Below are positions 4,931 through 30,436 of a stretch of 47,456 nt of DNA, one piece after another (the first letter of the stretch is position 1; the number at the start of each line of letters is the position of its first letter). The position numbers and the translations under genes were made by a program. The notes beneath the pieces were generated by a model. That model worked only from the letters and a program-made list of their open reading frames with translations. It had not been told where the DNA came from and ran no database searches. This DNA is from an uncultured Lachnospiraceae bacterium (lineage in GTDB: Bacteria; Bacillota; Clostridia; Lachnospirales; Lachnospiraceae). The stretch covers positions 1 through 47,456 of the forward strand of contig CACYMJ010000011.1 of NCBI GenBank assembly GCA_902775485.1. Direction: 5' to 3'.

Positions 4931-6400
4931 ATGGAAAACGAAAACAAGAGCGAAGACAAAAAAAGCATACTTGGCGGATTCCTGGAATTTTTCTACGGGA
5001 ATCTCGTTGTGCTCATACTCGGGTTCATCTCGCTCCCGCTGAACACGCGGCTGCTGTCAACTGGTGAATTCGGCAGGACTTCCCTTTTTATGTCCGCGGT
5101 GTCGATCATATATATATTTGCGATACTCGGGCTCGATCAGTCGTATATAAGATATTATTACAGGGAAAAGGTCGATAAGAGAAAACTGTTTTGGCAGTGC
5201 GTTATGATCCCGTTTTTGCTCATCTGCGTTCTGACGGCGGTATATGCCCTGTTTTCGGGCTTTTTCAATAACCTTTTGTTTGAAAGGACAGGGGTGGACA
5301 TTACGCTTCTTGTTGTCGGCTACACCGTAACGTCGGTATTCGAAAGATTTCTGTTCTTAAATATCAGAATGGAGCAGCGCGGGAAGCTTTATTCAAACCT
5401 GAACATTGTGTCAAAGGCACTATACATCCTGTTCATTATCATATTTGTGAACATTCTCGGGGATGATTTCAGGATCGGACTTTACGCTCCCACACTCCCT
5501 CTTGTTATAGTGACTGCCGGTCTGCTCATTGCGTTTTTGGCAAAGGGCAGGGGATATAAGGGAAGTGAGCATGATCTGTCCACGGCGGAACTGCTTCGAT
5601 ACGGCATTCCCTTTGTGCCGATGCTGCTTATGGAGTGGCTTCTGTCCTCGATGGATAAGTGGTCGATCCGTTTTCTTAACGATTTTTCCGAGACCGGAGT
5701 ATATTCCTCCGCGATGCAGATAATGACTATCCTGCTGACGCTGAAGATAACGTATGTGGCCTTCTGGTCGCCGATAGCGATGCAGAAATACGAGCAGGAA
5801 GACGAGGCAAGGGTAAAACCGTTTTTTGCCGACATGTTCCAGAAGGTTCAGTTTCTGTGCATGCTTGCTGCGTTCGGACTTACCGCTTTTCGAAGCTTGA
5901 TCGTTCTGATACTGGGAAGCGATTACCGGGATGCCTCAAAGATCATACCCTTCCTGTCACTCATGCCGGTCCTTTCGATACTGTTTGAGATGACGGGCCA
6001 GGGGATCAAATTCGTAAAAAAGACCGTATATTTCAATTATGCCTCACTGGCCGCCATAGTCTGCAACCTTGCCGGAAATCTCCTGTTAGTGCCCCGGTAT
6101 AAGGGTGTGGGAGCGGCGTTTGCGACAGCGGTCACGTACATAGTGTATTTTGCGATAGGAACATATCTGTCCGGGAAATGCTATCCCGTGGATTATAAAT
6201 ACCGCAGTTTTGCCGTCAGTCTTGCGGCATATATGATCTATGCTTTTTATGCCACATTTACCGATAAGGAATGGATGAACATCGCCGCAGGTGTTATACT
6301 TATCATCGGACTGATAATACTTAACCGGAATGTTACAGCATCTCTTTGGGGTTACTGCATGCAGTATATAAACAGGATCAGACGGAGGAAATTAAAATGA
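4931..6400 (+). CDS. wzx: Wzx-type lipid-linked oligosaccharide flippase
   Basis: A 489-residue integral membrane protein of the polysaccharide-synthesis branch of the MOP/MATE superfamily. Hydrophobic helices are spread through the whole length, about 12-14 by eye. The beginning, FYGNLVVLILGFISLPLNTRLLS, is the typical first helix and loop of this family, and there is no nucleotide-binding motif. Such proteins flip undecaprenyl-PP-linked repeat units to the outer face of the membrane. A flippase of this type normally works with a Wzy polymerase; no Wzy-like multi-spanning protein with a large outer loop is visible here, so it may lie upstream of the window. It overlaps the next gene by ATGA. 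Confidence 0.88.
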   Translation: MENENKSEDKKSILGGFLEFFYGNLVVLILGFISLPLNTRLLSTGEFGRTSLFMSAVSIIYIFAILGLDQSYIRYYYREKVDKRKLFWQCVMIPFLLICVLTAVYALFSGFFNNLLFERTGVDITLLVVGYTVTSVFERFLFLNIRMEQRGKLYSNLNIVSKALYILFIIIFVNILGDDFRIGLYAPTLPLVIVTAGLLIAFLAKGRGYKGSEHDLSTAELLRYGIPFVPMLLMEWLLSSMDKWSIRFLNDFSETGVYSSAMQIMTILLTLKITYVAFWSPIAMQKYEQEDEARVKPFFADMFQKVQFLCMLAAFGLTAFRSLIVLILGSDYRDASKIIPFLSLMPVLSILFEMTGQGIKFVKKTVYFNYASLAAIVCNLAGNLLLVPRYKGVGAAFATAVTYIVYFAIGTYLSGKCYPVDYKYRSFAVSLAAYMIYAFYATFTDKEWMNIAAGVILIIGLIILNRNVTASLWGYCMQYINRIRRRKLK

Positions 6401-8463: not shown

Positions 8464-8529
8464 ATTAAATGATTATGCGTTACTATGTGCTTTTTGTGCG
8501 CGTATTCATATATTTGGAAGGAAATAAAG

Positions 8530-9603
8530 ATGAAGACCTATCTCGTAACCGGAGGAGCCGGATTTATCGGTTCGAATTTTATCCATTACGTGTTTGACAA
8601 GCACGGGGATGATATCAGGGTAATAAATGTTGACCTGCTTACATACGCAGGCAATCTGGAAAATCTGACGGACGTTGAGAATAATCCGAATTATTCGTTC
8701 GTAAAAGCGGATATATGCGATAAGGAAGCTATATCAAAGATATTTGAGGAAAACGACGTTGACTTCGTCGTTCATTTTGCTGCGGAATCACATGTTGACA
8801 GAAGCATACGCGATCCCGAAGTGTTTGCAAGAACCAACGTGATAGGAACGCTCAATATGCTCAACTGCGCGAAATGTGCCTGGGAGACTTCCGACGGATT
8901 TAAGCCCGGAAAGAAGTTCCTGCACGTTTCCACCGATGAGGTATACGGATCACTGTCGGAAGAGGGAACATATTTTTACGAGACCACTCCGTATGATCCC
9001 CACAGTCCGTATTCTGCAAGCAAGGCTTCATCGGACTTCATGGTAAAGGCATATGTGGATACGTACAAGTTCCCTGCGTTCATCACGAACTGCAGTAATA
9101 ACTACGGCCCTTATCAGTTCCCTGAAAAGCTCATACCGCTTATCATAAACAATGTCCTTACCGGCAAAAAGCTTCCGGTATACGGTGACGGCAAAAACGT
9201 CCGCGACTGGCTGTATGTGATGGATCACGCCAAGGCCATCGACATGGTGCTTGAGAAGGGAAGGTTCGGCGAAAAGTACAACATCGGCGGACACAATGAA
9301 AAACAGAATATCGAGATAGTTAAGATCATAATAGACACGATTAAGGAAATGCTGCCCGAATCGGATCCGAGAAGGGAACATATCAATTATGATCTTATTA
9401 CCTATGTAGAGGACAGAAAAGGTCACGACAGAAGATATGCCATAGCTCCGGACAAGATCAGGTCCGAGATAGGCTGGGAGCCCGAGACAATGTTTGCCGA
9501 GGGCATAAAGCTGACCATCAAATGGTATTTCGAACATACCGAATGGATGGAACACGTAACAAGCGGCAATTACCAGAAATATTACGAGGAAATGTATAAA
9601 TGA
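8530..9603 (+). CDS. rfbB: dTDP-glucose 4,6-dehydratase
   Basis: RmlB/RfbB of 357 residues, a short-chain dehydrogenase/reductase-type enzyme that converts dTDP-glucose into dTDP-4-keto-6-deoxyglucose, the second step toward dTDP-L-rhamnose. It shows the NAD-binding motif [10 protein letters not shown] at the N-terminus, [11 protein letters not shown], the STDEVYGS segment and the catalytic YSASKASSD (Y-x3-K). I use ATG 8530, which has a GGAAGG ribosome site 9-14 bases upstream; an in-frame codon at 8485 would add 15 residues ahead of the normal family N-terminus. It is followed by rmlA with an ATGA overlap. Confidence 0.95.
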
Positions 9604-10469
9604 AAGGTATAATCCTTGCGGGAGGATCGGGAACGAGACTGTATCCTCTTACGAAGGCGATGTCCAAACAGATGATGCCTGTCTACGACAAGCCCATGAT
9701 CTATTATCCGCTTTCGATCCTGATGCTTGCCGATATCAGGGAGATACTCATAATCTCAACACCAAGGGATCTTCCGATGTTCAGGGAACTCTTCGGTGAC
9801 GGAAGCCAGCTCGGCCTTTCGATGTCATATGCCGTGCAGGAAAGTCCGAGAGGACTTGCCGATGCGTTTATAATAGGCGCCGATTTTATAGGCAGCGACA
9901 GTGTTGCACTCATACTCGGTGACAATATCTTCTACGGACAGAGTTTTTCCCGGGTGCTGCGGACGGTTGCATCCAGGACGGTGGGCGCCACCATATTCGG
10001 TTACTATGTAAGAGATCCGAAAGAATACGGTGTTGTTGAATTTGATGAGGACGGGAAGGCGATATCTATCGAGGAGAAGCCCGAAAAGCCCAAATCCAAT
10101 TACGCCGTTCCCGGACTGTATTTTTACGATAATCAGGTCGTAGCGATCGCAAAGGATGTCAAGCCCTCGGCAAGAGGCGAGATAGAGATCACGTCAGTGA
10201 ACAACGAGTATCTGCGGATGGGACAGTTGTACGTGGAGACGCTCGGGCGCGGATTTGCATGGCTCGACACAGGCAATCACGACATGCTCCTTGACGCCGC
10301 TGATTTTGTAAGGGCATTCCAGAAACGCCAGGGAATGTACATATCCTGTATAGAAGAGATAGCATACAGAAGAAAGTTCATAGACAGGGATCAGCTGCTC
10401 AGGCTGGCCCAGCCGCTTCTGAAAACGGATTACGGAAAATACCTGACAGATGTGGCAAACGGTTTGTAA
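9600..10469 (+). CDS. rfbA: Glucose-1-phosphate thymidylyltransferase
   Basis: RmlA of 289 residues, which makes dTDP-glucose from glucose-1-phosphate and dTTP, the first step of the dTDP-rhamnose route. The nucleotide-binding loop [11 protein letters not shown] is at the N-terminus, followed by [17 protein letters not shown] and later LGDNIFYG with the metal Asp. The length is the normal family length. Glucose-1-phosphate could come from the phosphoglucomutase encoded at 22525-24252. It shares an ATGA overlap with rmlB. The following gene is not rmlC but a muramidase, which interrupts the usual rml order. Confidence 0.95.
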
Positions 10470-10527: not shown

Positions 10528-13185
10528 ATGAAAAAGAACATGTATGACGGCAGGGGGGCCGAAGAGTGCACGAGACTTGACTGGGTTCAGTTATCGGAAG
10601 AGCTTGACGCAAATGAAAACAAGCAGATGGCTGATCATATCGTGGGAGAAACATTATCCCAGATAGTTTCGGAAGACCTGAAGGTAGACACATCGGACAT
10701 GGACGGCGTAAGAGCTGCCGTTGATTCTTTTTACGCATACGAAAACAAAAAGTCCAAAAAGAGCGTATCCGCTGCCGAAGACAGGGAAGAGGCGATCAGA
10801 AGATCGGTTGATGAAAAGATCATCATCAGATCCGAGGAGCTCAAGCATAAGCGCAGATCTTCGGAAATGACAAGAGCCGAGAAGATGGCGGCGCTCAAGG
10901 CCAAGAGCAGGAAACAGGAAAAGAAGGAAGAGCCTGAAAAGACGGATGATTCCTTCAGACATGTAAAGGGCCTTGAAAAGTACAGAAAGCTCGGTATTCT
11001 TCCTACAAAGAAAAACGGTCCTTCAGATTTCAGAAAACAATCAGCCGACTGGAGATACGACAGTGTTCCGGAGGCTCAGATAAGCGATGAGGCCATTGAG
11101 GCTGCAGAAGAGGATGAAACCTTTTGGGACAGGCTCAGGAATATGTCTCCGGTACAATGGATATGTACGGCCATGGCCGGAGTGCTTGTTATCACGTCTG
11201 TAATGACAACTACGGTGTATGCCGATTACAGAGGGGAAATGAACAAAGTCGCGGCTATGTCAGCTCTGCCGTATTTTGAAGACGATGCCACGGCTATAGC
11301 ATATAACGGTCCGGACGGGTACGAGGTAGAGGACGTTCCGATGGAGGACGTTGCGGCGGCTCCGGATTCGGCAGAGGGCAGGATGCTCTCGCTCGTGCTT
11401 ACAAGCGTGGAAAAGGATCTGAAAGTCAAGCTGGTCGATGATCAGGATACCCTTGTAAAGGGCGTTAAATGGGGGATCAGCGTAACCGACAGCAAGGACA
11501 AGGAAAGCGATTACGAGGATGAGGACGAGGACGGTATCATCCATCTGACCGGCATCAGCGCCGGAGATTATTCCGTAGCGATCAAAGATTCCGATGCGCT
11601 TTCGGGATATGTATTTCCGACGGTAGGACAGAAGGTCAGCGTAAAAGCAAAAGTTGAATATAAAGTAATAGCAAATATCAAGGACGAGATCAAGAAAGAG
11701 AGCGAGGTCAACGCAGCTGCGGAGGATAACGGAAACAAGGCTGCCGATGTTGAGACCGGTACGGCTCCCAAAGATACGGTTGAGTTTGTTGAATCGACAA
11801 AGACGGAAAACGGCGAGGAGTATGTTGAATCCTCAGTCGATCTGAGTAAGACGGAAGTTATCGCTTCCGCAGCCGGAAGACTGTTTGCGGCACTTTCGGA
11901 TATGGCTCGATTCGGAAGATCTTTCTCGGCAGATTCACTTGCAACAATAAAGCTGATTCCGAGAATGGTTGCTGATGAAAATGACGCCAATACAGTTGGA
12001 ACCGGTGAAGGCTCGGGCACGGGCGAAGGATCCGGAGAAGGATCGGGAAGCGGCTCAGAAGGTTCAGGTACAGGCGAAGGATCCGGAAGCGGCTCAGAAG
12101 GCTCGGGCACAGGTGAAGGATCTGGAAACGGTTCAGAAGGTTCGGGATCTGGAGAAGGATCGGGCACGGATAATGTAAATCCGACAAATACACCTACCCC
12201 CACCCCGACGCCTACACCTACACCTACACCGACACCTACACCTACGCCGACACCGACACCCACGGCGACACCTACAGCAACACCTACACCGACACCGACT
12301 CCTACGCCTACGCCGACAACATACAAGCCGGAGGCACAGCTTTACGATTCCGCAAAGAATCCGCTGTATGTCAGCGACAACGGCACATACAGACTTGCCA
12401 AGTATGCCGATATTAACAATTTCACCAAGTTCTACAAGAAGGTGGCAGGTTATCTGTACACCGGCTGGCAGAACATAGACGGCAGAAGCTATTACTTCAC
12501 CAAGGACCATCAGAAGGTAACGGGCGATCAGGTCATCGGAGGCGTTTCGTACAGCTTCAATTCGGACGGATCGTTAAATGTCGGCTCGGGAGTTATGGGT
12601 ATCGACGTATCCAAGTACCAGCCGAGTATCAACTGGGGTTCGGTCAAGGCCTCGGGAGTTGATTTTGTCATAATCAGATGCGGATACAGAGGAGCGTCAA
12701 CAGGTGCACTGATCGAGGATCCGTACTTCAGGAGCCATATAAAGGGTGCCAAGAATGCCGGACTGAAGGTAGGCGTTTACTTCTTCTCGACGGCACTTTC
12801 CGAAGCGGAAGCGGTAGAAGAGGCAAGTATGTGTGCGGCACTTTGCGGCGGATACGGTCTCAGTTATCCCGTATTCCTCGATGTGGAGAGTTCTTCAAGG
12901 CCCGGATACAACACGCTCTCGCCGTCGCAGAGAACGGCCAATATACAGGCGTTCTGCAAGACGATAGCATCTGCGGGATATACACCGGGACTGTATGCGA
13001 ACAAGACATGGCTGACAGAGAAGATCAATACGTCATCACTGTCATGCAAGATCTGGCTGGCACAGTACAATGCAAACGGACCGACATACAGCGGACGTTA
13101 CGATATCTGGCAGTATACATCAAAAGGCCATGTTGACGGCATCCCCGGAAACGTGGACATGAACAAGAGCTTCTTAAGGTACTGA
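10528..13185 (+). CDS. Membrane-anchored GH25 muramidase with cytoplasmic head and Gly-Ser / Thr-Pro linkers
   Basis: An 885-residue type II membrane protein. Residues 1-210 are highly charged, Lys/Glu-rich and presumably cytoplasmic. One helix (about 211-231, WICTAMAGVLVITS) crosses the membrane. A region to about 490 has a beta-rich, Cna/SpaA-like look in part (KVKLVDDQDT, DYSVAIKD). Then come a Gly-Ser-Glu linker (about 491-549) and a Thr-Pro linker (about 551-595), followed by choline/cell-wall-binding-like repeats (YLYTGWQNIDGRSYYF). The C-terminal GH25 muramidase domain (about 690-885) has GIDVSKYQ, VFLDVESS with the catalytic acid, and WQYTSKG. Such enzymes cut the MurNAc-GlcNAc bond of peptidoglycan. 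It sits between rmlA and rmlC, so it is probably co-expressed with glycan synthesis. The long cytoplasmic domain is unusual and its function is unknown. Confidence 0.9.
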   Translation: MKKNMYDGRGAEECTRLDWVQLSEELDANENKQMADHIVGETLSQIVSEDLKVDTSDMDGVRAAVDSFYAYENKKSKKSVSAAEDREEAIRRSVDEKIIIRSEELKHKRRSSEMTRAEKMAALKAKSRKQEKKEEPEKTDDSFRHVKGLEKYRKLGILPTKKNGPSDFRKQSADWRYDSVPEAQISDEAIEAAEEDETFWDRLRNMSPVQWICTAMAGVLVITSVMTTTVYADYRGEMNKVAAMSALPYFEDDATAIAYNGPDGYEVEDVPMEDVAAAPDSAEGRMLSLVLTSVEKDLKVKLVDDQDTLVKGVKWGISVTDSKDKESDYEDEDEDGIIHLTGISAGDYSVAIKDSDALSGYVFPTVGQKVSVKAKVEYKVIANIKDEIKKESEVNAAAEDNGNKAADVETGTAPKDTVEFVESTKTENGEEYVESSVDLSKTEVIASAAGRLFAALSDMARFGRSFSADSLATIKLIPRMVADENDANTVGTGEGSGTGEGSGEGSGSGSEGSGTGEGSGSGSEGSGTGEGSGNGSEGSGSGEGSGTDNVNPTNTPTPTPTPTPTPTPTPTPTPTPTPTATPTATPTPTPTPTPTPTTYKPEAQLYDSAKNPLYVSDNGTYRLAKYADINNFTKFYKKVAGYLYTGWQNIDGRSYYFTKDHQKVTGDQVIGGVSYSFNSDGSLNVGSGVMGIDVSKYQPSINWGSVKASGVDFVIIRCGYRGASTGALIEDPYFRSHIKGAKNAGLKVGVYFFSTALSEAEAVEEASMCAALCGGYGLSYPVFLDVESSSRPGYNTLSPSQRTANIQAFCKTIASAGYTPGLYANKTWLTEKINTSSLSCKIWLAQYNANGPTYSGRYDIWQYTSKGHVDGIPGNVDMNKSFLRY
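11998..12172 (+). repeat. Gly-Ser-Glu coding tandem repeats inside the GH25 gene
   Basis: Imperfect tandem units (variants of GGCGAAGGATCCGGAAGC and GGCTCAGAAGGTTCAGGT) encode a flexible GSGTGEGSG/GSEGSG linker. Unit number could vary by slippage or recombination, which would change the reach of the muramidase domain through the wall. Confidence 0.85.
12186..12321 (+). repeat. Thr-Pro coding hexanucleotide repeat tract inside the GH25 gene
   Basis: A run of ACACCT / ACGCCG / ACACCG hexamers encodes roughly twenty Thr-Pro pairs, with two Ala substitutions (TPTATPTATP). Such tracts form stiff, extended wall-spanning linkers. Any unit change is a multiple of six bases, so length changes keep the frame. 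Confidence 0.88.
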
Positions 13186-13222: not shown

Positions 13223-13768
13223 ATGGGAAAGATCACCGTTGAAAAAACACCTATCGAGGGACTGCTTGTTATAAGTCCCCAGGTGTTCGGAGACGAGCGC
13301 GGATATTTTATGGAGACATACAATATCGCGGATTTTAAAGAGGCAGGGATAGACTGTACGTTCGTTCAGGACAATCAGTCTGCTTCGAGAAAAGGTGTTA
13401 TACGCGGACTGCATTTTCAGAAGGAATTCCCGCAGGATAAGCTGGTGCGTGTGATCAGCGGCGAAGTTTTCGATGTTGCCGTGGACATGCGCCCGGGGTC
13501 TTCCACATACGGAAAATGGTACGGGATACGACTGAGCGCGGAGAATAAGAAAATGTTCTTTATACCGAAGAATTTTGCCCACGGTTTCCTGGTACTGTCT
13601 GATTATGCGGAGTTTACATACAAGTGTACGGAACTCTATCACCCCAATGATGAGGGGGGAATAATCTATAACGATCCCGGAATAGGCATCGAATGGCCGA
13701 TAGAAGAGGGAATGGAACTGATATTTTCCGAAAAGGACAAAAAATGGCCGACGCTTAAGGAGTTGTAA
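13223..13768 (+). CDS. rfbC: dTDP-4-dehydrorhamnose 3,5-epimerase
   Basis: RmlC of 181 residues, a cupin-fold enzyme that epimerises C3 and C5 of dTDP-4-keto-6-deoxyglucose. Family motifs are the start IEGLLVISPQVFGDERGYFMET, SASRKGVIRGLHFQ with the catalytic His, DVAVDMRPGSSTYGKW and FIPKNFAHGFLVLSD. It is preceded by a GGGAG ribosome site and overlaps the ABC permease gene by one base. No rmlD reductase gene is in the window, so the last step to dTDP-L-rhamnose must be encoded elsewhere, or the 4-keto sugar is used differently. Confidence 0.94.
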   Translation: MGKITVEKTPIEGLLVISPQVFGDERGYFMETYNIADFKEAGIDCTFVQDNQSASRKGVIRGLHFQKEFPQDKLVRVISGEVFDVAVDMRPGSSTYGKWYGIRLSAENKKMFFIPKNFAHGFLVLSDYAEFTYKCTELYHPNDEGGIIYNDPGIGIEWPIEEGMELIFSEKDKKWPTLKEL

Positions 13769-14751
13769 TGGCAAGAAAGAAAACGGTCATATCTGTTGTC
13801 ACCGTGCTCATCGTGGCACTTACGGCATATATAATCCTGCATCACAATCAGTTTGCGGATCCCGGCGAGGAAATGATCAAGAAGATCATTTCCTGCGTTA
13901 TTCTTATTGCCATATATACCGTATTCCTGCTTAAATACGACAAGATAGTCATTCTTCCGGTTGAGCTGTTCCAAAACCGCCAGCTGATCTGGAAACTGGC
14001 AAAGAATGATTTCAAGACAAGATACGCGGGCTCTTACCTCGGCATAGTCTGGGCTTTTGTCCAGCCCGTAATAACGGTATTGCTGTACTGGTTCGTTTTT
14101 TCGGTGGCCCTTCCTTCAAGAGCGGTGGCTGTCAAGGGTGATATTACGATACCGTATATACTCTGGCTGATCGCCGGCATCGTCCCCTGGTTTTTCTTCT
14201 CTGAAGCACTTTCCAACGGAACGGGCGCACTTCTTGAGTATAATTATCTTGTCAAAAAAGTTGTGTTCAAGATCAGCATACTTCCGATAATCAAGATAAT
14301 ATCCGCGCTTTTTGTCCACGGATTTTTCCTGATATTTACGGTAGTGCTCTTTAGCTGCTACGGTTATTATCCCGACCTTTACACACTGCAGGTGTTTTAC
14401 TACAGTGCATGTATGTTCATATTTGTGCTCGGGCTTTGTTATATCACGTGCTCGATCATCATATTTTTCAGGGATCTGGGACAGATCATATCAATTGCGC
14501 TCCAGGTGGGTATATGGGCGACACCGATCCTCTGGAACATAACGACTCTCTCACCAAAGCTTCGCATAGTGTTCAAACTCAACCCGATGAACTATATCGT
14601 GGAGGGATACAGGGACGCTTTTATTGACAAGATCTGGTTCTGGGAGAATTTTTATTCGACTGCATATTTCTGGATACTGACGATGTGTGTGTTCGCTTTC
14701 GGAGCGATCATATTTAAGCGCCTCAAGGTGCATTTTGCCGATGTTTTGTAA
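13768..14751 (+). CDS. wzm: Polysaccharide ABC exporter, permease subunit (Wzm/TagG type)
   Basis: A 327-residue ABC-2 family permease. The core starts at about residue 65 with the family hallmark LAKNDFKTRYAGSYLGIVWAFVQP, followed by five or six membrane helices and a C-terminal NPMNYIVEGYRDA segment. Wzm/TagG proteins form the channel that exports undecaprenyl-PP-linked O-antigens or wall teichoic acids after full polymerisation in the cytoplasm. The protein has about 60 extra N-terminal residues with two added hydrophobic helices (about 6-24 and 36-54), longer than the usual 260-275 residues. The start at ATG 13768 is supported by AAGGAG 5 bases upstream. The partner ATPase is the next gene. 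Confidence 0.92.
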   Translation: MARKKTVISVVTVLIVALTAYIILHHNQFADPGEEMIKKIISCVILIAIYTVFLLKYDKIVILPVELFQNRQLIWKLAKNDFKTRYAGSYLGIVWAFVQPVITVLLYWFVFSVALPSRAVAVKGDITIPYILWLIAGIVPWFFFSEALSNGTGALLEYNYLVKKVVFKISILPIIKIISALFVHGFFLIFTVVLFSCYGYYPDLYTLQVFYYSACMFIFVLGLCYITCSIIIFFRDLGQIISIALQVGIWATPILWNITTLSPKLRIVFKLNPMNYIVEGYRDAFIDKIWFWENFYSTAYFWILTMCVFAFGAIIFKRLKVHFADVL

Positions 14752-14759
14752 GGTGGATC

Positions 14760-16124
14760 ATGGCTGATTTTCTCGATGCGATAAAACAACCGAATAGTGC
14801 GGCGGAGCATACCGACCACGTGCGCGCGGGAAATATATCCGATGAGGTAGCGATAAGCGTGGCAAACGTGTCAAAGGTATACAAACTGTACGACCGTAAC
14901 CGCGACAGATTAAAGGAAGCGCTTCATCTGGGCAGGAACATTCACTGCCGGGAACATTTTGCGCTCGATAATGTAAGTTTTGACGTATATAAGGGCGAGA
15001 CAGTCGGGATAATCGGAACGAACGGATCAGGAAAATCCACCATCCTTAAGATAATCACGGGTGTTCTGTCGCCGACATCCGGAGAGCTTAATATAAGCGG
15101 CAGGATAAGTGCGCTGTTGGAACTGGGTGCAGGATTTAACATGGAATTTACCGGGATCGAGAATATATATTTGAACGGAACGATGCTCGGTTTTTCGGAA
15201 AAGGAGATAGACGACAGGCTCGAATCCATACTCGAGTTTGCCGACATAGGTGATTTTGTTTACCAGAAGGTCAAGACATATTCGAGCGGTATGTTCGTGC
15301 GCCTTGCATTTGCGGTTGCGATCAATATAGATCCGGAGATCCTTATAGTAGACGAGGCTCTGTCGGTCGGAGATGTTTTCTTCCAGAACAAGTGTTACAG
15401 GAAGTTCGAGGATTTTAAAAAACAGGGTAAGACCATTCTGTTTGTCAGTCATGATCTTGGAAGCATAAGCAAGTATTGTGACAGGGTGATACTTCTCGAG
15501 CGCGGACACAAGATCGGAGAGGGTGACGCCAAAACCATCATAGACATGTACAAAAAGGTTCTTGTCGGACAGCTTGACAGCACGATGAGCGAGGCCGGAC
15601 CGGGCAGCGATGAAAAAGGCAGCATGTGGAAGGACCTTATGCAGCTTAACCCGAACGTGGATGCGTACGGGAGCGGACTTGCCGAATTTGTTGATTACTG
15701 CGCGTACGATAACAGCGGAACAATAACCAATACGATCATAAAGGGCGACGAATTTACCGTAAAGGTTAAGATAAAGTTTTACGAAACCATTCAGGATCCG
15801 ATATTTGCGCTTTCGTTCAAGAACATGCAGGGTACCGAGATCACCGGCACGAACACTATGTTTGAGAAGATCACGACCGGTACACCCCATGCGGGCGATA
15901 CATATATAGTCACCTTTACCCAGAACATGTCGCTTCAGGGAGGGGAATATCTGATCTCCCTGGGCTGCGTAGGATACAGGGAAGGAAGTTTTACCGTTTA
16001 TCACAGGTTGTATGACGTATTCAACCTGACAGTCATATCATCAAAGAACACGACCGGATTTTATGACATGAACTCGGTCGTTACAGTTCGCAGCGAGGAC
16101 GAAGATGCCGTACAAAAACCGTGA
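14760..16124 (+). CDS. wzt: Polysaccharide ABC exporter, ATPase with C-terminal cargo-binding domain (Wzt type)
   Basis: A 454-residue ATPase. Walker A is GTNGSGKST (86-94), the signature is YSSGMFVRLAFA (from 174), Walker B is ILIVDEAL (194-201) and the switch His is H231. After the ATPase domain and a linker (about 270-300), residues 300-445 form a beta-rich domain (FVDYCAYDNSG, GDEFTVKVKIKF, FALSFKNMQGTEI), typical of the Wzt C-terminal domain. In the E. coli O8/O9a systems this domain binds the modified non-reducing end of a finished glycan and so licenses export. Its presence points to recognition of a capped chain. The gene overlaps the methyltransferase-kinase gene by 20 bases. Confidence 0.93.
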   Translation: MADFLDAIKQPNSAAEHTDHVRAGNISDEVAISVANVSKVYKLYDRNRDRLKEALHLGRNIHCREHFALDNVSFDVYKGETVGIIGTNGSGKSTILKIITGVLSPTSGELNISGRISALLELGAGFNMEFTGIENIYLNGTMLGFSEKEIDDRLESILEFADIGDFVYQKVKTYSSGMFVRLAFAVAINIDPEILIVDEALSVGDVFFQNKCYRKFEDFKKQGKTILFVSHDLGSISKYCDRVILLERGHKIGEGDAKTIIDMYKKVLVGQLDSTMSEAGPGSDEKGSMWKDLMQLNPNVDAYGSGLAEFVDYCAYDNSGTITNTIIKGDEFTVKVKIKFYETIQDPIFALSFKNMQGTEITGTNTMFEKITTGTPHAGDTYIVTFTQNMSLQGGEYLISLGCVGYREGSFTVYHRLYDVFNLTVISSKNTTGFYDMNSVVTVRSEDEDAVQKP

Positions 16125-18450
16125 CCGCATTGGAAATGTGACAGTAGATTACACATATTACGGAGGAGAAGACCTGTACACCGAGGGAGCCGCGGAGGAC
16201 AGGCTTCTTGACTACGTCAGGAATCATACCGCGCTTGACTACGAACATTACATTCAGGAAACAAGATCGTGGTCGGTGATGTATCATCTCTCCTACATAA
16301 GGGAAAATGTTGCCGAGTGGCTTCCGATAACATCGGGCGATAAGGTTCTTGAGATCGGCAGCGGATGCGGTGCCATAACGGGCGTGCTCGCACGGCTCGC
16401 AAAATCGGTCACCTGCGTTGAACTTTCCAAAAAAAGAAGCCTGATAAATGCATATAAAAACAGGGAACACGACAATATCAACATAATGGTCGGTAACTTC
16501 CAGGATGTTGAGAAGGGCCTGAAAGAAAAGTACGATTACATCACACTTATCGGAGTGTTGGAATATGCAGGGTCATATATCAACGCCGATAAGCCTTACA
16601 ATAAATTCCTTGAGATATTAAAGGGCCATTTAAATCCCGGCGGAAAGATAGTCATAGCCATAGAAAACAGGCTTGGAATGAAGTATTTTGCGGGATGCAA
16701 GGAAGATCACCTCGGAAAGTATTTCGGAGGGATAGAAGGATATGCATCCTCTCCGAATGTCAGGACATTTTCGAAGTCAAGTCTTGAAAAGATAATAGAA
16801 GATGCGGGATTTACGGACGCCAGGTTTTATTATCCGTATCCGGATTACAAGCTTCCCCATACCATATATTCGGATGACATGCTCCCTTCGATCGGGGATC
16901 TTGATACCAATCTTCGTAACTATGATGATGACCGCCTCGTGTTGTTTGACGAGACCAAAGCTTTTGATGCGATGATCGAGGAACACCGTTTCCCTGATTT
17001 TTCCAATTCGTTCATAGTGATCGCATCAACGCAAAAGGGATGGCAGGATCATACGGTGCTTCCCATATATGTCAAATACGGAAACGACCGGAAGGATGAT
17101 TACCGGGTCTGCACATCAATAATCAGGACACCTGACGGTCAGAAGCGTGTGTACAAGCATGCGCTTTCCACCCATGCAAACGCGCATATCAGGCATCTTT
17201 CGGAAGGCTATAACAGGCTGGTGGAACAGTTTGGCGATACGAATCTCGTACCTGTGGGATGCGAATACATCATGGGAGAAGAGCGGGGAACCGTATTCGC
17301 AGGAGTAGCGTCAACCGCAAAGGACAGCGTCAGATTCGATTATATTTCCGGAATAACGCTGGAAGACTATTTAAGTGAACTTGAAAATGCCGGACAGTAT
17401 GAGAAGATGGAATCGGTCATACTCGAATATTGCAGGAAACTCTCATCATGTACGGACGTTACCGAATTCAAGCGAAGCGTCAAGTTTGATGAAGTTTTCG
17501 GAAAACGTGAGTTCAAAAAGAAATACATTGCGAGCAATCCATGCAATTTCGACATGATCTTTTCGAACATAGTCCTTGATGAGGATGAGAAGGATGCCGG
17601 ATCATGGACCGTTCTCGATTATGAGTGGATATGGGATTTTGCCGTACCGATACAGTTCGTGATATACAGGGCACTGTATTATCATTTCCGCAACAGGACG
17701 GATGAAGGGTTTGCACTGTATCTGTCCAGAAAAGGGATGGATGTGTACGGACTGTGCGGCATAGATATCGGCGAGAGGATGCTTTTCAATGAGATGGAGC
17801 ATTCGTTCCAGGTGTATATCATAGGCGGAGCCGCATCGCTTGAGGTGATGCAGGTACTGATGCCCACTACGACGATCAGGATAGACAATATCGTTAAGAT
17901 AGGGTCATATCTTCGTAATCTTGATACTCCCAGGATATATTTTTCGAGGGGCACCAATTTTACATCCGAAAACCAGATCAGCGTTATCGGACGTGTAGAG
18001 GACGGAATGGTGAACCTTCATATCCCGTTTGACCATTACATCAATTCGATCAGGATCGATCCCACGGAATATCCGTGCCTTCTCTATCTTGACGGTATAT
18101 CATATACGCTTAACGACGGGATACATCAGGATGTTTCCGAGGTGATAGTAAACGCTTACAAACTGGCAGAGGATGCATATATCTATGATACGAACGATGC
18201 ACAAATCGTTGTTACGGGGATACCTCAGAACGCACAGGCGATAGACCTTCGTTACCGTGTAACAATGATCGAAGATCCGTTTTACGAGAAGATGCTGAGT
18301 ATCCTGAAAGCCGAGGAAGAGCGCAAACTTGCTGAAAAACGTAAGATAATATACCGTGCAAAACGCAAGGTCGGTTTGATCAAAGAGGATATACTGCCTG
18401 AAGGGTTCGTAAGGGCATTTCTTAAAAAGGACGAACGGTCGGAACAGTAA
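16105..18450 (+). CDS. Fused SAM methyltransferase and APH-like kinase, probable WbdD-type chain terminator
   Basis: A 781-residue protein in at least three parts. (1) A class I SAM-dependent methyltransferase (about 60-320) has motif I LEIGSGCGA (82-90), acidic E106 and the post-motif LNPGGKIVIAIEN. (2) Residues about 330-590 read as an aminoglycoside-phosphotransferase/kinase fold. They contain a candidate ATP lysine K351 (RVYKHA), a hinge-like FDYISGITLEDYL, a catalytic-loop-like D483-x4-N488 (NFDMIFSN) and a metal-site-like LDYEW (D505, E507). (3) A beta-rich region (about 610-715) ends in a charged helix. The methyltransferase is clear; the kinase is an inference from motif spacing. E. 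coli WbdD has the same methyltransferase-then-kinase order, caps the O8/O9a glycan with methyl or methyl-phosphate, and acts with Wzm/Wzt. The gene overlaps wzt by 20 bases. Confidence 0.8.
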   Translation: MPYKNRDRIGNVTVDYTYYGGEDLYTEGAAEDRLLDYVRNHTALDYEHYIQETRSWSVMYHLSYIRENVAEWLPITSGDKVLEIGSGCGAITGVLARLAKSVTCVELSKKRSLINAYKNREHDNINIMVGNFQDVEKGLKEKYDYITLIGVLEYAGSYINADKPYNKFLEILKGHLNPGGKIVIAIENRLGMKYFAGCKEDHLGKYFGGIEGYASSPNVRTFSKSSLEKIIEDAGFTDARFYYPYPDYKLPHTIYSDDMLPSIGDLDTNLRNYDDDRLVLFDETKAFDAMIEEHRFPDFSNSFIVIASTQKGWQDHTVLPIYVKYGNDRKDDYRVCTSIIRTPDGQKRVYKHALSTHANAHIRHLSEGYNRLVEQFGDTNLVPVGCEYIMGEERGTVFAGVASTAKDSVRFDYISGITLEDYLSELENAGQYEKMESVILEYCRKLSSCTDVTEFKRSVKFDEVFGKREFKKKYIASNPCNFDMIFSNIVLDEDEKDAGSWTVLDYEWIWDFAVPIQFVIYRALYYHFRNRTDEGFALYLSRKGMDVYGLCGIDIGERMLFNEMEHSFQVYIIGGAASLEVMQVLMPTTTIRIDNIVKIGSYLRNLDTPRIYFSRGTNFTSENQISVIGRVEDGMVNLHIPFDHYINSIRIDPTEYPCLLYLDGISYTLNDGIHQDVSEVIVNAYKLAEDAYIYDTNDAQIVVTGIPQNAQAIDLRYRVTMIEDPFYEKMLSILKAEEERKLAEKRKIIYRAKRKVGLIKEDILPEGFVRAFLKKDERSEQ

Positions 18451-20508
18451 ATGAGAGCAAAAAAAGACAGTCTTTTGCTTGAATATCAGCAGGAGTGTTT
18501 TAAGCAGACAAAACCATACGGTTATGAACTGGCATATACAGACGAAACCGAAGAAGCGGAGGGCGTCCCGGGCAGAGGCGGCCATCCGAGCGGACATATC
18601 ATATTTTTTCCCGATGATGATCAAAACATATTGAATTTCGAGGGCATAAACGAGGATTATGTGATCTTCGTTTCAAAAGAGGGTGTTTATGAGCCTGACC
18701 TTGTAGGATCACTGCTTTCGGCAGGCGGCGGCGCGGACATTGTATACCCCGATGAGGATTTTGCAACGGATGCATCAGCGGATCTATCGGATATTAATGT
18801 CAGGGTCCGTACGCTTCGTACCCCCTGGAGAAAGCCCGAATACTCTCCGGATACGATAGTGACCTTCCCGTATATCGAAACATGCTTTGCGATAAAAACC
18901 GCGTTTGCAAGGTGCGTCCCGGCAATGAAAAGGACTCCCGAACTCGGGGATAATATCAGATGCCGCGATTTTCTGCTTCGCTCGCTGGAGAGGGCATCAT
19001 CTGTTTCGCATGTTGCAAAGATACTGTATCACAGGGATCTTGAGTCACTTTTGCCGGGCATGGCCGATGTTTTCGATGAAGATATATTTGATGCTCTTTA
19101 CCGCAGGTATACGAAGCCCGGATATATACTCTGCCGTGAGGCTGCGGAAAAAAGGCGCGGTATAAACGTCATCCCCGAGCCTGAAAAGGATGCACCGCTG
19201 GTATCCATAATCATCCCTTCAAAGGATCAGCCCCGCGTGCTTAAGGAGTGTATACGCAATATCAGGCTTAATGCCGGCGACGTAAAATACGAGATCATCG
19301 TTGTGGATAACGGAAGCAGCGATGAGAACCGAGACATTATCGAAAGATACGTTACCCAGCTTCCCGGCGGAAGGGGAACGTATATTTACGACAAGCGTGA
19401 ATTTAATTTTTCGGTTATGTGCAATACCGGAGCAGAAGCCGCGAGGGGCAGGTTCCTCCTGTTCATGAACGATGATGTTGACGCCATAACGGAAGGTTTT
19501 ATTGATAAACTTGTGATGTATGCCGCCAGACCTTATGTCGGGGCTGTCGGGGCTAAACTTCTGTACCCGGATGATGTCAGTATTCAGCATATCGGAGTAA
19601 TGGATACAAACCGTGGTCCGGTGCATAAACTGGCCGGATTAAGGGATGATATCGTGCATTACTACTGCAGGAACAGATTTGCCTGGAATACTCTTGCCGT
19701 AACGGGGGCCTGCCTTATGACGGAGAGGGAAAAATACTATCAAACAGGCGGATTTTATGATAAAATGGAGGTCGGTTATAACGACATCGATCTGTGCTTG
19801 CGGCTGATCGAAAGAGGGTATTACAATGTCGTCAACAATGAGTGCGTGATGACACATCATGAGTCCATCGCACGCGGCACGGATTCGAAAAGTGATGAGA
19901 AGAGTGCGCGTCTTGCCGCAGAGCGTGCCATGCTATACTCCATTCATCCGTGGATCGCAAATCATACGGACCCGTTTTACGGATACATGCTCGACAAGGA
20001 TACGAATCTTATCAGATGCGGTATCGTTCCGGAATACCAGATCACCGATCTGAGGAACAAGGTGAAGGAGATCGACCATCTTCCCGGGAGGCGTTCCGAT
20101 AAGATACAGATGTCAATAGATGCATGCTCTGTTGAGCGAAGTGTTGCCGATGATGCCGAAGACGCTTATGTCATTGAGGGATGGTGCATGTCGAATAAAT
20201 GGGACAACGCACTGACCGGGAGATATCTCATCCTCATTCCGCTCGATGAAGAGGATATGGAAAAAAAGGACAGCTGTATCCTTGCACGGATTTCGCCTAA
20301 GTACAGAACGGATGTCAGGGAAGTATTCCCGGATGCCGTAAATACGAATCTGGCGGGATTTGTATGCAGGATATCTGCCGACAAGATAGACCCGCACATT
20401 AGATACAGGATCGGTGTGGCGGTCCGGAAACTGACAGGGATCAAAAGCTGCAGGATAGCTTTGGGTGATATATATGAACCGCGAAGAGGAATTGTCAAAG
20501 ACGAGTGA
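18451..20508 (+). CDS. Large GT2 glycosyltransferase with degenerate first domain and C-terminal beta domain
   Basis: 685 residues, starting immediately after the previous stop. Residues about 248-500 form a complete GT2 domain: LVSIIIPSKDQP, IIVVDNGSSDENR, the metal motif FMNDDVD (about 338-344), GACLMTERE and the late NDIDLCLRL. The first 240 residues resemble the second half of another GT2 domain (VYPDEDF, PEYSPDTIV, AKILYHRDLES) but lack the N-terminal nucleotide-binding strand and a DxD motif, so this half looks inactive. Residues about 545-680 are a beta-rich unit (AYVIEGWCMSN, NLAGFVCRI, YRIGVAV) that may bind glycan. This is a rhamnosyl-type GT2 by general resemblance only. It overlaps the next gene by about 35 bases. 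Confidence 0.85.
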   Translation: MRAKKDSLLLEYQQECFKQTKPYGYELAYTDETEEAEGVPGRGGHPSGHIIFFPDDDQNILNFEGINEDYVIFVSKEGVYEPDLVGSLLSAGGGADIVYPDEDFATDASADLSDINVRVRTLRTPWRKPEYSPDTIVTFPYIETCFAIKTAFARCVPAMKRTPELGDNIRCRDFLLRSLERASSVSHVAKILYHRDLESLLPGMADVFDEDIFDALYRRYTKPGYILCREAAEKRRGINVIPEPEKDAPLVSIIIPSKDQPRVLKECIRNIRLNAGDVKYEIIVVDNGSSDENRDIIERYVTQLPGGRGTYIYDKREFNFSVMCNTGAEAARGRFLLFMNDDVDAITEGFIDKLVMYAARPYVGAVGAKLLYPDDVSIQHIGVMDTNRGPVHKLAGLRDDIVHYYCRNRFAWNTLAVTGACLMTEREKYYQTGGFYDKMEVGYNDIDLCLRLIERGYYNVVNNECVMTHHESIARGTDSKSDEKSARLAAERAMLYSIHPWIANHTDPFYGYMLDKDTNLIRCGIVPEYQITDLRNKVKEIDHLPGRRSDKIQMSIDACSVERSVADDAEDAYVIEGWCMSNKWDNALTGRYLILIPLDEEDMEKKDSCILARISPKYRTDVREVFPDAVNTNLAGFVCRISADKIDPHIRYRIGVAVRKLTGIKSCRIALGDIYEPRRGIVKDE

Positions 20509-22480
20509 ATACTATAAGGATCTGTACGAGAAGGAACGTGCGAAAAATGCGCAGTTGACGGAAAAGCTCGTTGACGCCGAGGCAAAAGCGGCGGACCTTG
20601 AATACAAGATGGACAAGCTTCGCAATTCCATGATATGGAAGATGGTCTATCCCATAAGGCTTTTATGGAGTCATACAAAGAATATCTTTATCCGTATCAA
20701 AAGATACGGAAGTCTTTCAAATCTCAAGAAGAAAATTGAGAGCAAGATAATAGAGCGCCGTGCGTACAAGAGTTACGGAACGCTTTCCATGCCTGATGCC
20801 GAAGAGATAAAGCGTCAGAGGGATACTGTATTTGAGCGAAAGATACTGTTCAGCATACTCGTACCGCTTTACAATACTCCCGAACAGTTCCTTAGGGAGA
20901 TGATAGATTCGGTCGTCGCCCAGACTTATACAGACTGGGAGCTGTGCCTTGCGGACGGATCCGACGATGAACACGCATATGTGAAAACGATAGTCAGTTC
21001 ATACAACGATCCGCGCATCCGATACGAGAAACTGACTGAAAATCTCGGAATATCGGGTAATACGAACAAGTGCTTCGATATGGCAAAGGGAGACTATATC
21101 GGACTGTTCGATCACGATGACATATTGCATCCTACCGCGCTTTATGAGTATATGAAGGTCATTTGCGCAGAAGATGCCGATTACATATACTGCGATGAGA
21201 CAACCTTTTCGGGCAAGTCCATCGATCATATGATCACGCTTCATTTCAAACCGGATTTTGCACCGGATAATCTTCGCGCAAACAACTATATATGTCATTT
21301 TTCGGTATTTGCCAAGGAACTTGTAAAAAAGTGCGGCACCTTCCGTACGGAGTTTGACGGAAGCCAGGATCACGACATGATCTTAAGACTTACAAGGGAG
21401 GCAAAGCATATCTCACATGTTCCGAAGATACTGTACTACTGGAGGAGCCACGCAGGCTCGGTCGCCTCGGACATCAATGCTAAGACCTATGCGATCGATG
21501 CAGCCAAAGGTGCCGTTGCGGCTCACCTTACGGCCTGCGGATTTAAGGATTTTAAGATCGAAAGCTCAAGGGCGTTTGAAACGATATTCAGGATCAGATA
21601 TGCACTGACCGCGCATCCGCTTATCTCGATAATCATACCGAACAAAGATCATACGGAAGATCTGCGCAGGTGCATTGAATCGATAACCGACCTGACGTCC
21701 TACGACAATTACGAGATAATAGTCGTTGAGAACAATTCCGAAACGGATGAGATAAGGGAGTATTACAGATCCCTAAAAATGCATCCGAAGGTCAGGGTTG
21801 AAGAGTACGAGGGTCAGTTCAATTACTCGAAGATCAATAATTTCGGAGCCGGTTTTGCAAAGGGTGAGTATCTTCTGCTGCTTAACAATGACACAGAGGT
21901 GATCACGAGAAACTGGATCGAAGAACTCCTTATGTATGCACAGCGTGATGATGTCGGCGCGGTGGGCTGCATGCTCTACTATCCGGACTATACGATACAG
22001 CACGCAGGCATTGTACTCGGTATGGGAGCGCACAGAACTGCGGGCCATTCGCATTACAAAATGGCCAAGGAAAATCTAGGATATATGGGAAGGCTCTGCT
22101 ATGCGCAGAATGTATCGGCAGTTACCGGAGCCTGCCTGATGGTCAGAAAAGCGTTGTTTGACGAAGTGGGAGGCCTGTCCGGGGATCTGGCGATCGCGCT
22201 TAATGATGTGGATCTGTGCCTGAAATTGAGACAGAAGGGATTACTAAACGTGTTCACGCCGTTTGCCCAGCTGTTTCATTACGAATCCGCTTCAAGAGGT
22301 GACGATGTGACGGCGGATGCATCGAAGGAAAATGCCGAACGTTACAACAGGGAATGTGAGATTTTCAAAAACAGGTGGAAAGAAGTGCTTGAGGCGGGAG
22401 ATCCGTATTTTAACCCGAACTTTTCACTGGATTATTCCAATTACGTGCTCGCGGGAAACAGGAAGAGCATGCTCGAATAG
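20474..22480 (+). CDS. Tandem GT2 glycosyltransferase with N-terminal coiled coil
   Basis: 668 residues from ATG 20474, chosen over GTG 20465 because GGGTGA lies at a normal distance upstream. Residues 5-55 form a charged coiled coil. GT2 domain 1 (about 126-370) has FSILVPLYNTP and FDHDD (about 211-215), and ends KILYYWRSHAGS. GT2 domain 2 (about 381-640) has LISIIIPNKDH, LLNNDTEV (about 468-475), GACLMVRK and NDVDLCLKL. Both domains keep their metal motifs, so the protein could add two different linkages. This layout is common in Firmicute rhamnan and O-antigen-like polymer synthesis, and such two-domain enzymes can act as processive or alternating polymerases. The gene overlaps its upstream neighbour. 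Confidence 0.88.
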   Translation: MNREEELSKTSEYYKDLYEKERAKNAQLTEKLVDAEAKAADLEYKMDKLRNSMIWKMVYPIRLLWSHTKNIFIRIKRYGSLSNLKKKIESKIIERRAYKSYGTLSMPDAEEIKRQRDTVFERKILFSILVPLYNTPEQFLREMIDSVVAQTYTDWELCLADGSDDEHAYVKTIVSSYNDPRIRYEKLTENLGISGNTNKCFDMAKGDYIGLFDHDDILHPTALYEYMKVICAEDADYIYCDETTFSGKSIDHMITLHFKPDFAPDNLRANNYICHFSVFAKELVKKCGTFRTEFDGSQDHDMILRLTREAKHISHVPKILYYWRSHAGSVASDINAKTYAIDAAKGAVAAHLTACGFKDFKIESSRAFETIFRIRYALTAHPLISIIIPNKDHTEDLRRCIESITDLTSYDNYEIIVVENNSETDEIREYYRSLKMHPKVRVEEYEGQFNYSKINNFGAGFAKGEYLLLLNNDTEVITRNWIEELLMYAQRDDVGAVGCMLYYPDYTIQHAGIVLGMGAHRTAGHSHYKMAKENLGYMGRLCYAQNVSAVTGACLMVRKALFDEVGGLSGDLAIALNDVDLCLKLRQKGLLNVFTPFAQLFHYESASRGDDVTADASKENAERYNRECEIFKNRWKEVLEAGDPYFNPNFSLDYSNYVLAGNRKSMLE

Positions 22481-30037: not shown

Positions 30038-30436
30038 ATGTACGAAGAACTGACATTTGTGTTTGACGTGGACGGGACCATCTGTCCGATCAAAAAAGAA
30101 AACGAGAAATACGAGGATATCGTTCCTTATGCCGAAATGGTCGAAAAGATACGGGAATATAAGGCGGGCGGTGCAAAGATAGTGCTGCTTACGAGCAGGA
30201 ACATGAACTCATTCGGAGGCAATATCGGCCTTATAAACGCAAATACGGCCAAGATACTGCTTGCGTGGCTGGAAAAATGGGATATACCCTACGATGAGAT
30301 CATATACGGCAAGCCCTGGCCCGGATATCACGGTTTTTATGTCGATGACAGAACGGTCAGACCCTCCGAGTTCCTCTCCAAGAGCGTCGAGGAACTTGAT
30401 GAGATCGTAAGGAGGGACAGATGCAGACAGTCATAA
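30038..30436 (+). CDS. Small HAD-superfamily phosphatase
   Basis: 132 residues, starting right after the kinase stop. The HAD motif I is FDVDGTIC with the catalytic pair D10 and D12; motif II is LLTSRN; the late YVDDRTV provides the acidic residues of motif IV. There is no cap domain, so it may act on a small phosphorylated sugar or polyol, or may need a partner. Related short HADs are known in capsule clusters, often next to nucleotidyltransferases. It overlaps the following gene by 16 bases. The substrate is unknown. Confidence 0.85.
   Translation: MYEELTFVFDVDGTICPIKKENEKYEDIVPYAEMVEKIREYKAGGAKIVLLTSRNMNSFGGNIGLINANTAKILLAWLEKWDIPYDEIIYGKPWPGYHGFYVDDRTVRPSEFLSKSVEELDEIVRRDRCRQS

Follow-up and report, generated by a model that had tools for sequence, protein, structure and literature searches.

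A probable methyl-phosphate cap-and-export module with a terminator of the O7 ORF6 type in a Lachnospiraceae bacterium

Introduction

The glycan of Escherichia coli O9a is described as carrying a methyl-phosphate cap (PMC3482155), and in Klebsiella pneumoniae O7 the protein ORF6 is described as one chain made of a methyltransferase, an AmiN-like kinase, a carbohydrate-binding module (CBM), a coiled coil and two GT2 glycosyltransferase modules (PMC11231755). According to the same source, ORF6-O7 was shown to add phosphate and methyl-phosphate, the latter incompletely in vitro, at the 3-position of the terminal rhamnose (Rha); the D441A change abolished the reaction and gave in vivo only high-molecular-weight polymer, as expected of unexported chains; and the orthologues that it names belong to the alpha- and gammaproteobacteria and the cyanobacteria (PMC11231755). 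In this work we analyzed a stretch of 47,456 nucleotides from an uncultured Lachnospiraceae bacterium (contig CACYMJ010000011.1, positions 1 to 47,456; the whole stretch is called the window below), in which the genes for a permease Wzm, an ATPase Wzt with a C-terminal cargo-binding domain (CBD) and a methyltransferase-kinase lie together at 13768-18450. From comparison of the sequences we propose, with a probability of roughly 0.75, that these genes form a methyl-phosphate cap-and-export module in a Gram-positive bacterium, with a terminator of the O7 ORF6 lineage.

Two further systems bear on this proposal. In Geobacillus stearothermophilus, WsaE is described together with Wzm/Wzt for an S-layer rhamnan that carries a 2-O-methyl group at the terminal rhamnose, with Wzt as the predicted binder (PMC2943079). 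In Aquifex aeolicus, Trp362 of Wzt is described as stacking on a 3-O-methyl group, and putting Leu in its place all but abolishes lipopolysaccharide binding (PMC9445017).

Results

The kinase domain of the methyltransferase-kinase protein

The genes and domains that carry the argument are as follows.

13768-14751, forward strand: Wzm permease, 327 amino acids (aa; PF01061, 1.7e-15)
14760-16124, forward strand: Wzt ATPase with a C-terminal CBD, 454 aa (PF00005 and PF14524)
16105-18450, forward strand: methyltransferase-kinase terminator, 781 aa
16126-17040, forward strand: methyltransferase domain, residues 8-312 (Methyltransf_23, 2.8e-11, residues 64-237)
17050-17844, forward strand: kinase-like domain, residues 316-580, with K351, D483, N488, D505, E507 and W508
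17920-18279, forward strand: beta-rich domain, residues 606-725, in the position of the O7 CBM (AlphaFold2, AF2, strands 610-720)
18451-20508, forward strand: gtA, GT2 glycosyltransferase (PF00535, 4.2e-19)
20465-22480, forward strand: gtB, N-terminal coil and two GT2 modules, 671 aa (PF00535, 3.2e-47, two stretches)

The original prediction, made from the letters of the DNA and its open reading frames (ORFs), had placed Wzm, Wzt with a CBD and the methyltransferase-kinase side by side with a 20-base overlap between the last two genes. The ORFs and Pfam bear this out exactly, the overlap being 16105-16124. K351, D483, N488 and the run D505-Y506-E507-W508 were likewise found at the residues that it had named. 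Within residues 330-590 no domain was placed by Pfam, by NCBIfam (best 25 of 46 matches) or by the single-sequence PDB matches listed, so the kinase claim was at first one of motifs. Pfam searches with the kinase-bearing stretches of seven proteins gave a Pkinase match for L026 (E 0.077) and no kinase match above noise for the rest.

Conservation is the first evidence that the motif is more than chance. Across 69 distinct relatives, a set that includes the sequences used to build the kinase profile, D483, N488, D505 and E507 are each kept in 68 and W508 in all 69, while K351 is kept in 65 of the 65 that align at that position; in the printed rows it is the poorly aligned L089 that departs at D505 and E507. 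Identity in the kinase domain falls to 22-29% in the more distant members, and the active-site residues are near-invariant throughout. The AF2 model of the 781-aa protein (30 sequences; mean predicted local distance difference test, pLDDT, 78.9) gives the order of elements of a kinase: strands 319-325, 335-341 and 347-353 with K351 in the third, helix 356-376, a further helix 432-447, a loop with D483 and N488, strands 489-491 and 501-503, and then D505. Averaged in blocks of ten residues, pLDDT is 83-96 over 311-560, save for 44 and 72 at 391-410 and 78 at 531-540. When 21 kinase regions were combined in a profile, it picked out JAK tyrosine kinases among the PDB sequences (best E 7.2e-4; many JAK entries, one family), and the aligned part covers the surroundings of the third-strand lysine and the next helix. 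The predicted order of elements, the JAK match and the near-invariant active site all point to a real kinase domain, and this part of the original prediction holds.

Relationship to Klebsiella O7 ORF6 and to WbdD

A search of plasmid proteins found two Gram-negative relatives, from Pseudomonas asturiensis and Citrobacter braakii, with methyltransferase identities of 33% and 31%, respectively (about 350-365 columns); window residues 8-344 align with the Pseudomonas O7-like protein at 33% over 349 columns (E 2.7e-46). Both genes lie directly behind Wzm and Wzt, and both Wzts carry a scored Wzt cargo domain. The Citrobacter locus has rfbA, rfbC and rfbD upstream, with a transposase in between. 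The Pseudomonas relative joins a methyltransferase, the kinase motif and two GT2 modules in a single chain of 1457 residues. It has all six S-adenosylmethionine (SAM)-site residues described for ORF6-O7 (Y28, Y66, G91, G93, E112 and Y158; PMC11231755) at identical numbers, with the catalytic Asp at 443 versus 441, and the window protein also has the full set (Y25, Y60, G85, G87, E106 and Y154).

With hhalign, the kinase family of the window protein matches a profile of both Gram-negative proteins at 95.3% (E 2.2e-8) and the Pseudomonas protein alone at 95.5% (E 1.5e-8). Adding to the target profile five phylum relatives that the window protein had retrieved raises the match to 98.3% (E 2.5e-14); the stricter value is 95.3%. 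Five controls (the methyltransferase profile, the reversed sequence, gtA, gtB and Wzt) gave 0.0-0.4%. In addition, 39% identity over 546 columns (E 1e-121) links gtB with the two-GT2 end of the Pseudomonas protein. When E. coli genomes were searched for distant homologues of the Citrobacter gene, nothing turned up. Based on the Gram-negative kinase and methyltransferase homology, the SAM-site numbering and the gtB match, we regard the window enzyme as related to the O7 terminator. Its closest characterised relative appears to be Klebsiella O7 ORF6 and not WbdD, by a link that runs through the Gram-negative relatives in place of the ORF6 sequence itself. The two clusters share wzm, wzt and rml genes, the SAM-site residues and the kinase profile homology, and their modules follow the same order, with a methyltransferase first, then a kinase, a beta domain, a coil (predicted here) and two GT2 modules.

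The original prediction had called the module WbdD-like. The cap-and-export part of this claim is supported: as in E. coli O9a, a methyltransferase-kinase fusion lies beside a Wzt with a presumed cap-binding CBD, the kinase is conserved, the Wzt_C domain is a true one, the genes travel together, and a methyl-phosphate cap would be expected. The enzyme itself is better placed in the O7 ORF6 type. A true WbdD-family enzyme, orthologous to O9a WbdD, would share the domain order methyltransferase-kinase and would fit a CBD that is nearest by sequence to the PDB entry 2r5o, which we take to be the C-terminal domain of E. coli O9a Wzt. It would also fit the weak tyrosine-kinase profile match, given that the WbdD kinase is described as tyrosine-kinase-like (PMC3482155). 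Such orthology is nevertheless scarcely credible: none of the 58 PDB sequences that the kinase profile picks up at E<=10 is named WbdD (a profile result, with no direct comparison with the WbdD sequence), the long C-terminal coiled coil of WbdD was not found in the window protein by AF2 or by a heptad score, and the homology points to the O7-type lineage. The window enzyme would work like WbdD yet is not recognisably of the WbdD sequence family.

Distribution of the module and linkage to the Wzt cargo domain

The closest named loci, at 69-77% identity, are from Lachnospiraceae metagenome-assembled genomes; 36 of the 42 candidate stretches in the survey of relatives yielded 35 distinct loci. 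The module was found in 58 of 145 related genomes, 57 of these 58 with Wzt_C; the 58 include G070, in which the methyltransferase hidden Markov model (HMM) gave no confirmation, and moving it gives 56/57. A phylum-wide sample has the terminator in 12 of 398 genomes, source genome included. The original prediction had called the mechanism unusual for a Firmicute. This does not survive the search for the gene trio, because the module is common in relatives and a methyl-capped rhamnan was already described in Geobacillus (PMC2943079). The Lachnospiraceae host does differ from the orthologues that the Klebsiella paper names, which are proteobacterial or cyanobacterial (PMC11231755). In the titles and abstract openings of a literature set that misses most subscription papers, no Gram-positive methyltransferase-kinase terminator is named, nor is a rule on Arg and Trp of the kind described below.

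For gene order we tallied 75 loci (L003-L037 and L081-L120, excluding the short L001, L002, L038-L078 and the plasmid L079-L080), which became 73 after removal of L115 (G070), without a methyltransferase by HMM, and of the near-duplicate L029. Methyltransferase and kinase are fused in 50 of the 73 and lie on adjacent genes in 19, and no kinase was detected in 4. Wzt_C is present in 63/73 loci and is <=500 bp away in 58/73. Counted by genome, Wzt_C occurs in 57/58 with the terminator versus 14/87 without, and 2 of those 14 (G055 and G084) have a split terminator that fell under the first threshold and was seen on inspection. Outside the genus of the source genome the counts are 21/22 versus 13/86 (Fisher 1.4e-12), or 20/21 versus 14/87 with G070 moved (Fisher 8.4e-12), both uncorrected for relatedness.

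The presumed cap-reading position of Wzt

15657-16079, forward strand: Wzt CBD, residues 300-440 (PF14524 Wzt_C, 2.5e-40, residues 301-437)
16005-16016, forward strand: R416-L417-Y418-D419 of Wzt, R416 aligned by HMMER with Aquifex Wzt Trp362 and with the Arg of 2r5o

The original prediction had given Wzt a cargo-binding C-terminal domain, and it proves to be a true Wzt_C. Its best solved relative by sequence is 2r5o (E 2.5e-5), followed by the Aquifex CBD (6.6e-4), and in the model comparison the full-length Wzt aligns with A. aeolicus WzmWzt (7k2t, 8dku) at 39% over 347 aligned residues. Trp362 of Aquifex was located in the alignment via the spacing of His350, His355 and Trp362. The Arg that 2r5o has at the same CBD position is a likeness to O9a Wzt if 2r5o is, as we assume, that protein. 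Unlike the Aquifex Wzt, which is described as reading a 3-O-methyl sugar via Trp362 (PMC9445017), the window Wzt has R416 there.

R416 and Y418 are present in all 65 Wzts beside a methyltransferase-kinase, and Arg and Tyr also occur in both Gram-negative relatives. The same position in 17 Wzts without a terminator holds Y in 8, W in 4, F in 2, R in 2 and N in 1, both Arg cases being L126 and L128. These 17, a subset of the Wzt_C matches, come from 20 stretches, with L125 and L127 (split terminator) moved and L144 (contig end) dropped. CBD profile scores are 168-250 in 61/63 terminator loci versus 19-35 or unscored in the 15 Wzts without Arg. Since the two Wzt sets are mostly different CBD clades, shared descent could explain part of the Arg pattern. 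The Arg is nonetheless kept far from the main CBD clade, by L087 and L088 (score 55) as well as by the Wzts of the two Gram-negative relatives (53 and 56). The comparison supports an association of Arg at 416 with the methyltransferase-kinase, and R416 probably contacts the phosphate of a methyl-phosphate cap. The association of Arg for Trp in Wzt with the type of terminator looks new.

This residue also bears on a methyl-only cap, in which the methyltransferase would cap a sugar hydroxyl directly and the kinase-like domain would be structural or act elsewhere. Methyl-only caps are described in the Gram-positive Geobacillus (PMC2943079) and in E. coli O8 (PMC3482155), and conservation is higher in the methyltransferase than in the kinase (about 55% versus 25%, for example, in most of L013-L029). 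The Geobacillus system is Gram-positive and has a rhamnan chain with a methyl on the terminal rhamnose, which Wzt is predicted to bind; by its description it differs in having 2-O-methyl without phosphate and one protein with a methyltransferase and two GT domains (PMC2943079). However, the active-site residues of the kinase are near-invariant, the kinase stays beside the methyltransferase even as a separate protein (19/73 loci), and the CBD has Arg where the methyl-stacking Trp sits. We consider a methyl-only cap unlikely and retain methyl-phosphate as the expected cap.

The converse idea, that an aromatic residue at 416 means a methyl cap, is unsupported because a SAM-motif pattern was found in only 1/13 loci (<=4 downstream ORFs). 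As to gene content without a terminator, L126 has by eye polytopic-membrane-like and glycosyltransferase-like genes in place of the terminator. L136, L137, L139 and L140 are Wzt_C loci with large GT2 proteins, no terminator and Wzm-like ORFs of 460-465 aa, versus about 260-365 aa in most other loci.

Re-cutting of the module order and position of the predicted coil

20537-20638, forward strand: predicted coil of gtB, residues 25-58 (heptad score)

The coil is described as the length ruler of known terminators (PMC11231755, PMC11127046). Among relatives the O7 order methyltransferase-kinase-CBM-coil-GT2-GT2 recurs with differing cuts. It is uncut in Pseudomonas, and L087 also has one ORF with methyltransferase, kinase and GT2; in 7 loci (L031, L084, L101, L104, L108, L113 and L114) the cut follows the methyltransferase and leaves the kinase joined to GT2. 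In the window type the cut falls before the coil and gives the 781-aa protein and the 671-aa coil-GT2-GT2 protein with a GT2 gene between them, unlike the single chain of ORF6. This cut would explain why no coil was found in the window terminator, whereas ORF6 has one.

Coils were detected by a home-made heptad score, calibrated on shuffles, that misses some coils: it assigns a coil neither to the Citrobacter relative nor to the tail of L109, which is rich in repeats. By this score there is no coil in the window terminator and none in 43 fused methyltransferase-kinase-CBM proteins (0/43). The AF2 model gives the C-terminus of the terminator a helix at 726-748 and 750-755, with pLDDT <60 in three of four ten-residue blocks. 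The heptad score predicts a coil at the N-terminal side of the two-GT2 protein in 34 of the 39 fused-type loci that have such a protein nearby, and in 11-12 of 19 separate kinase proteins (two counts, differing at L106). The displacement of the coil from the terminator to the neighbouring polymerase looks like a newly recognised arrangement, in which a chain-length ruler would act between two proteins or be absent. The original prediction had the cap set the length of the glycan; with no coil found in the terminator, such control is at most a possibility.

One separate kinase, L109 7564-8931 on the reverse strand, has by eye repeated 'ELEKGIxWH'-like units at its C-terminus, possibly a repeat-built coil; the Wzt of that locus is without a cargo domain.

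Other genes of the locus

8485-9603, forward strand: rmlB, dTDP-rhamnose supply (NCBIfam TIGR01181, 5.7e-146, above the curated cut-off)
9600-10469, forward strand: rmlA, dTDP-rhamnose supply (NCBIfam TIGR01207, 4.9e-147, above the curated cut-off)
13223-13768, forward strand: rmlC, dTDP-4-dehydrorhamnose 3,5-epimerase, directly 5' of wzm (TIGR01221, 4.3e-77, above the cut-off)

Homologues of rmlC take the equivalent position in L003-L005, L007-L014 and others. A phosphohexomutase-like gene lies 3' of gtB, after gtA and gtB. The source genome (2.33 Mb, 61 contigs, 84% complete) has rmlD outside the window, on G000:C15 (TIGR01214, 4.3e-90), and one LytR-CpsA-Psr protein on G000:C3, away from the cluster. 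Based on the rml genes, LytR-CpsA-Psr, Wzm/Wzt and GT2 families of the genome, the product of the cluster would naturally be read as a rhamnose-containing, lipid-linked, ABC-exported glycan, with gtB as its likely rhamnosyl polymerase.

Between rmlA and rmlC, positions 10528-13185 encode a GH25 lysozyme-like surface protein of 885 aa with a choline-binding-type repeat, a SpaA-like domain and long SG/E-rich and PT repeats. The window also holds two Bac_transf initiating sugar transferases and a Wzx-like flippase (463-1824, 4931-6400 and 33606-35006); their presence beside an ABC exporter suggests two glycan assembly systems side by side. A second APH-like kinase at 28640-30037 has weak EcKL/APH matches, HGDMCFSN and a later D motif. 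It adjoins a HAD-like protein and a weakly nucleotidyltransferase-like protein (30038-30436 and 30421-31170), the latter with TIGR03992 at 3.9e-4, far under the cut-off. The genes at 28640-31170 may form a sugar-phosphate or small-molecule-phosphate module that has nothing to do with the terminator.

Discussion

The gene identities, the domain order, the conserved active site, the O7-like homology and the linkage to one type of CBD are seen directly in the loci compared here. The chemistry that we infer from them, including the rhamnose substrate, the reading of phosphate by R416 and any control of length, would run as follows. A rhamnose-containing chain would be assembled in the cytoplasm while attached to a lipid carrier, with gtB as the likely polymerase; the kinase domain would phosphorylate the sugar at the non-reducing end, and the methyltransferase would methylate the terminal phosphate, upon which growth would stop. 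The CBD of Wzt would then read the methyl-phosphate cap, with R416 probably on the phosphate, and Wzm/Wzt would export only chains so capped.

Several observations weigh against this reading. The kinase region of the window protein matches zero Pfam models even at E 5. With the 781-residue model, the 50 matches listed by Foldseek and the 50 listed by VIA all have the methyltransferase fold, which leaves the kinase part unprobed by these searches; neither WbdD nor AmiN is among the matches listed, and nothing follows from their absence. The kinase profile matches the Citrobacter kinase region alone only weakly (6.7%, E 0.0055), and so does the beta-rich domain the O7 CBM (E 0.0056 and 6.5% with Pseudomonas; 0.5% with the wider set). 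In 4/73 loci (L036, at a contig end, L086, L090 and L116) the methyltransferase has no detected kinase, and 10/73, some on short contigs, have no CBD found. The genomes in the co-occurrence counts share descent and hence are not independent. In L109 and L091 a methyltransferase-kinase pair lies beside a short Wzt without a CBD, and L126 (G019, same genus) and L128 (G070) have the R-type CBD with no terminator in the stretch fetched. These last four loci also favor another explanation, namely that the pair decorates many residues of the chain or a side group in place of the end, with the CBD reading an unrelated epitope. We judge this very improbable in view of the tight co-occurrence of the pair with the R-type CBD and of the relative with proven function, which is a terminator. 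End capping with methyl-phosphate remains our preferred reading.

A broader proposal is tentative and somewhat doubtful at present: the Lachnospiraceae terminator may have lost its ruler to the polymerase, so that length would be gauged across two proteins, and Arg in place of Trp in the CBD may mark methyl-phosphate caps in general. Nature's own re-cutting of a single module order offers a ready-made test of how the length of a chain is measured. There would also be a testable rule connecting the type of terminator with one residue of the exporter, and the cap chemistry could be read from the transporter sequence alone in both Gram-positive and Gram-negative bacteria. If the module works as we propose, a quality control known from Gram-negative O-antigens would also operate in a large group of Gram-positive bacteria of the gut and rumen.

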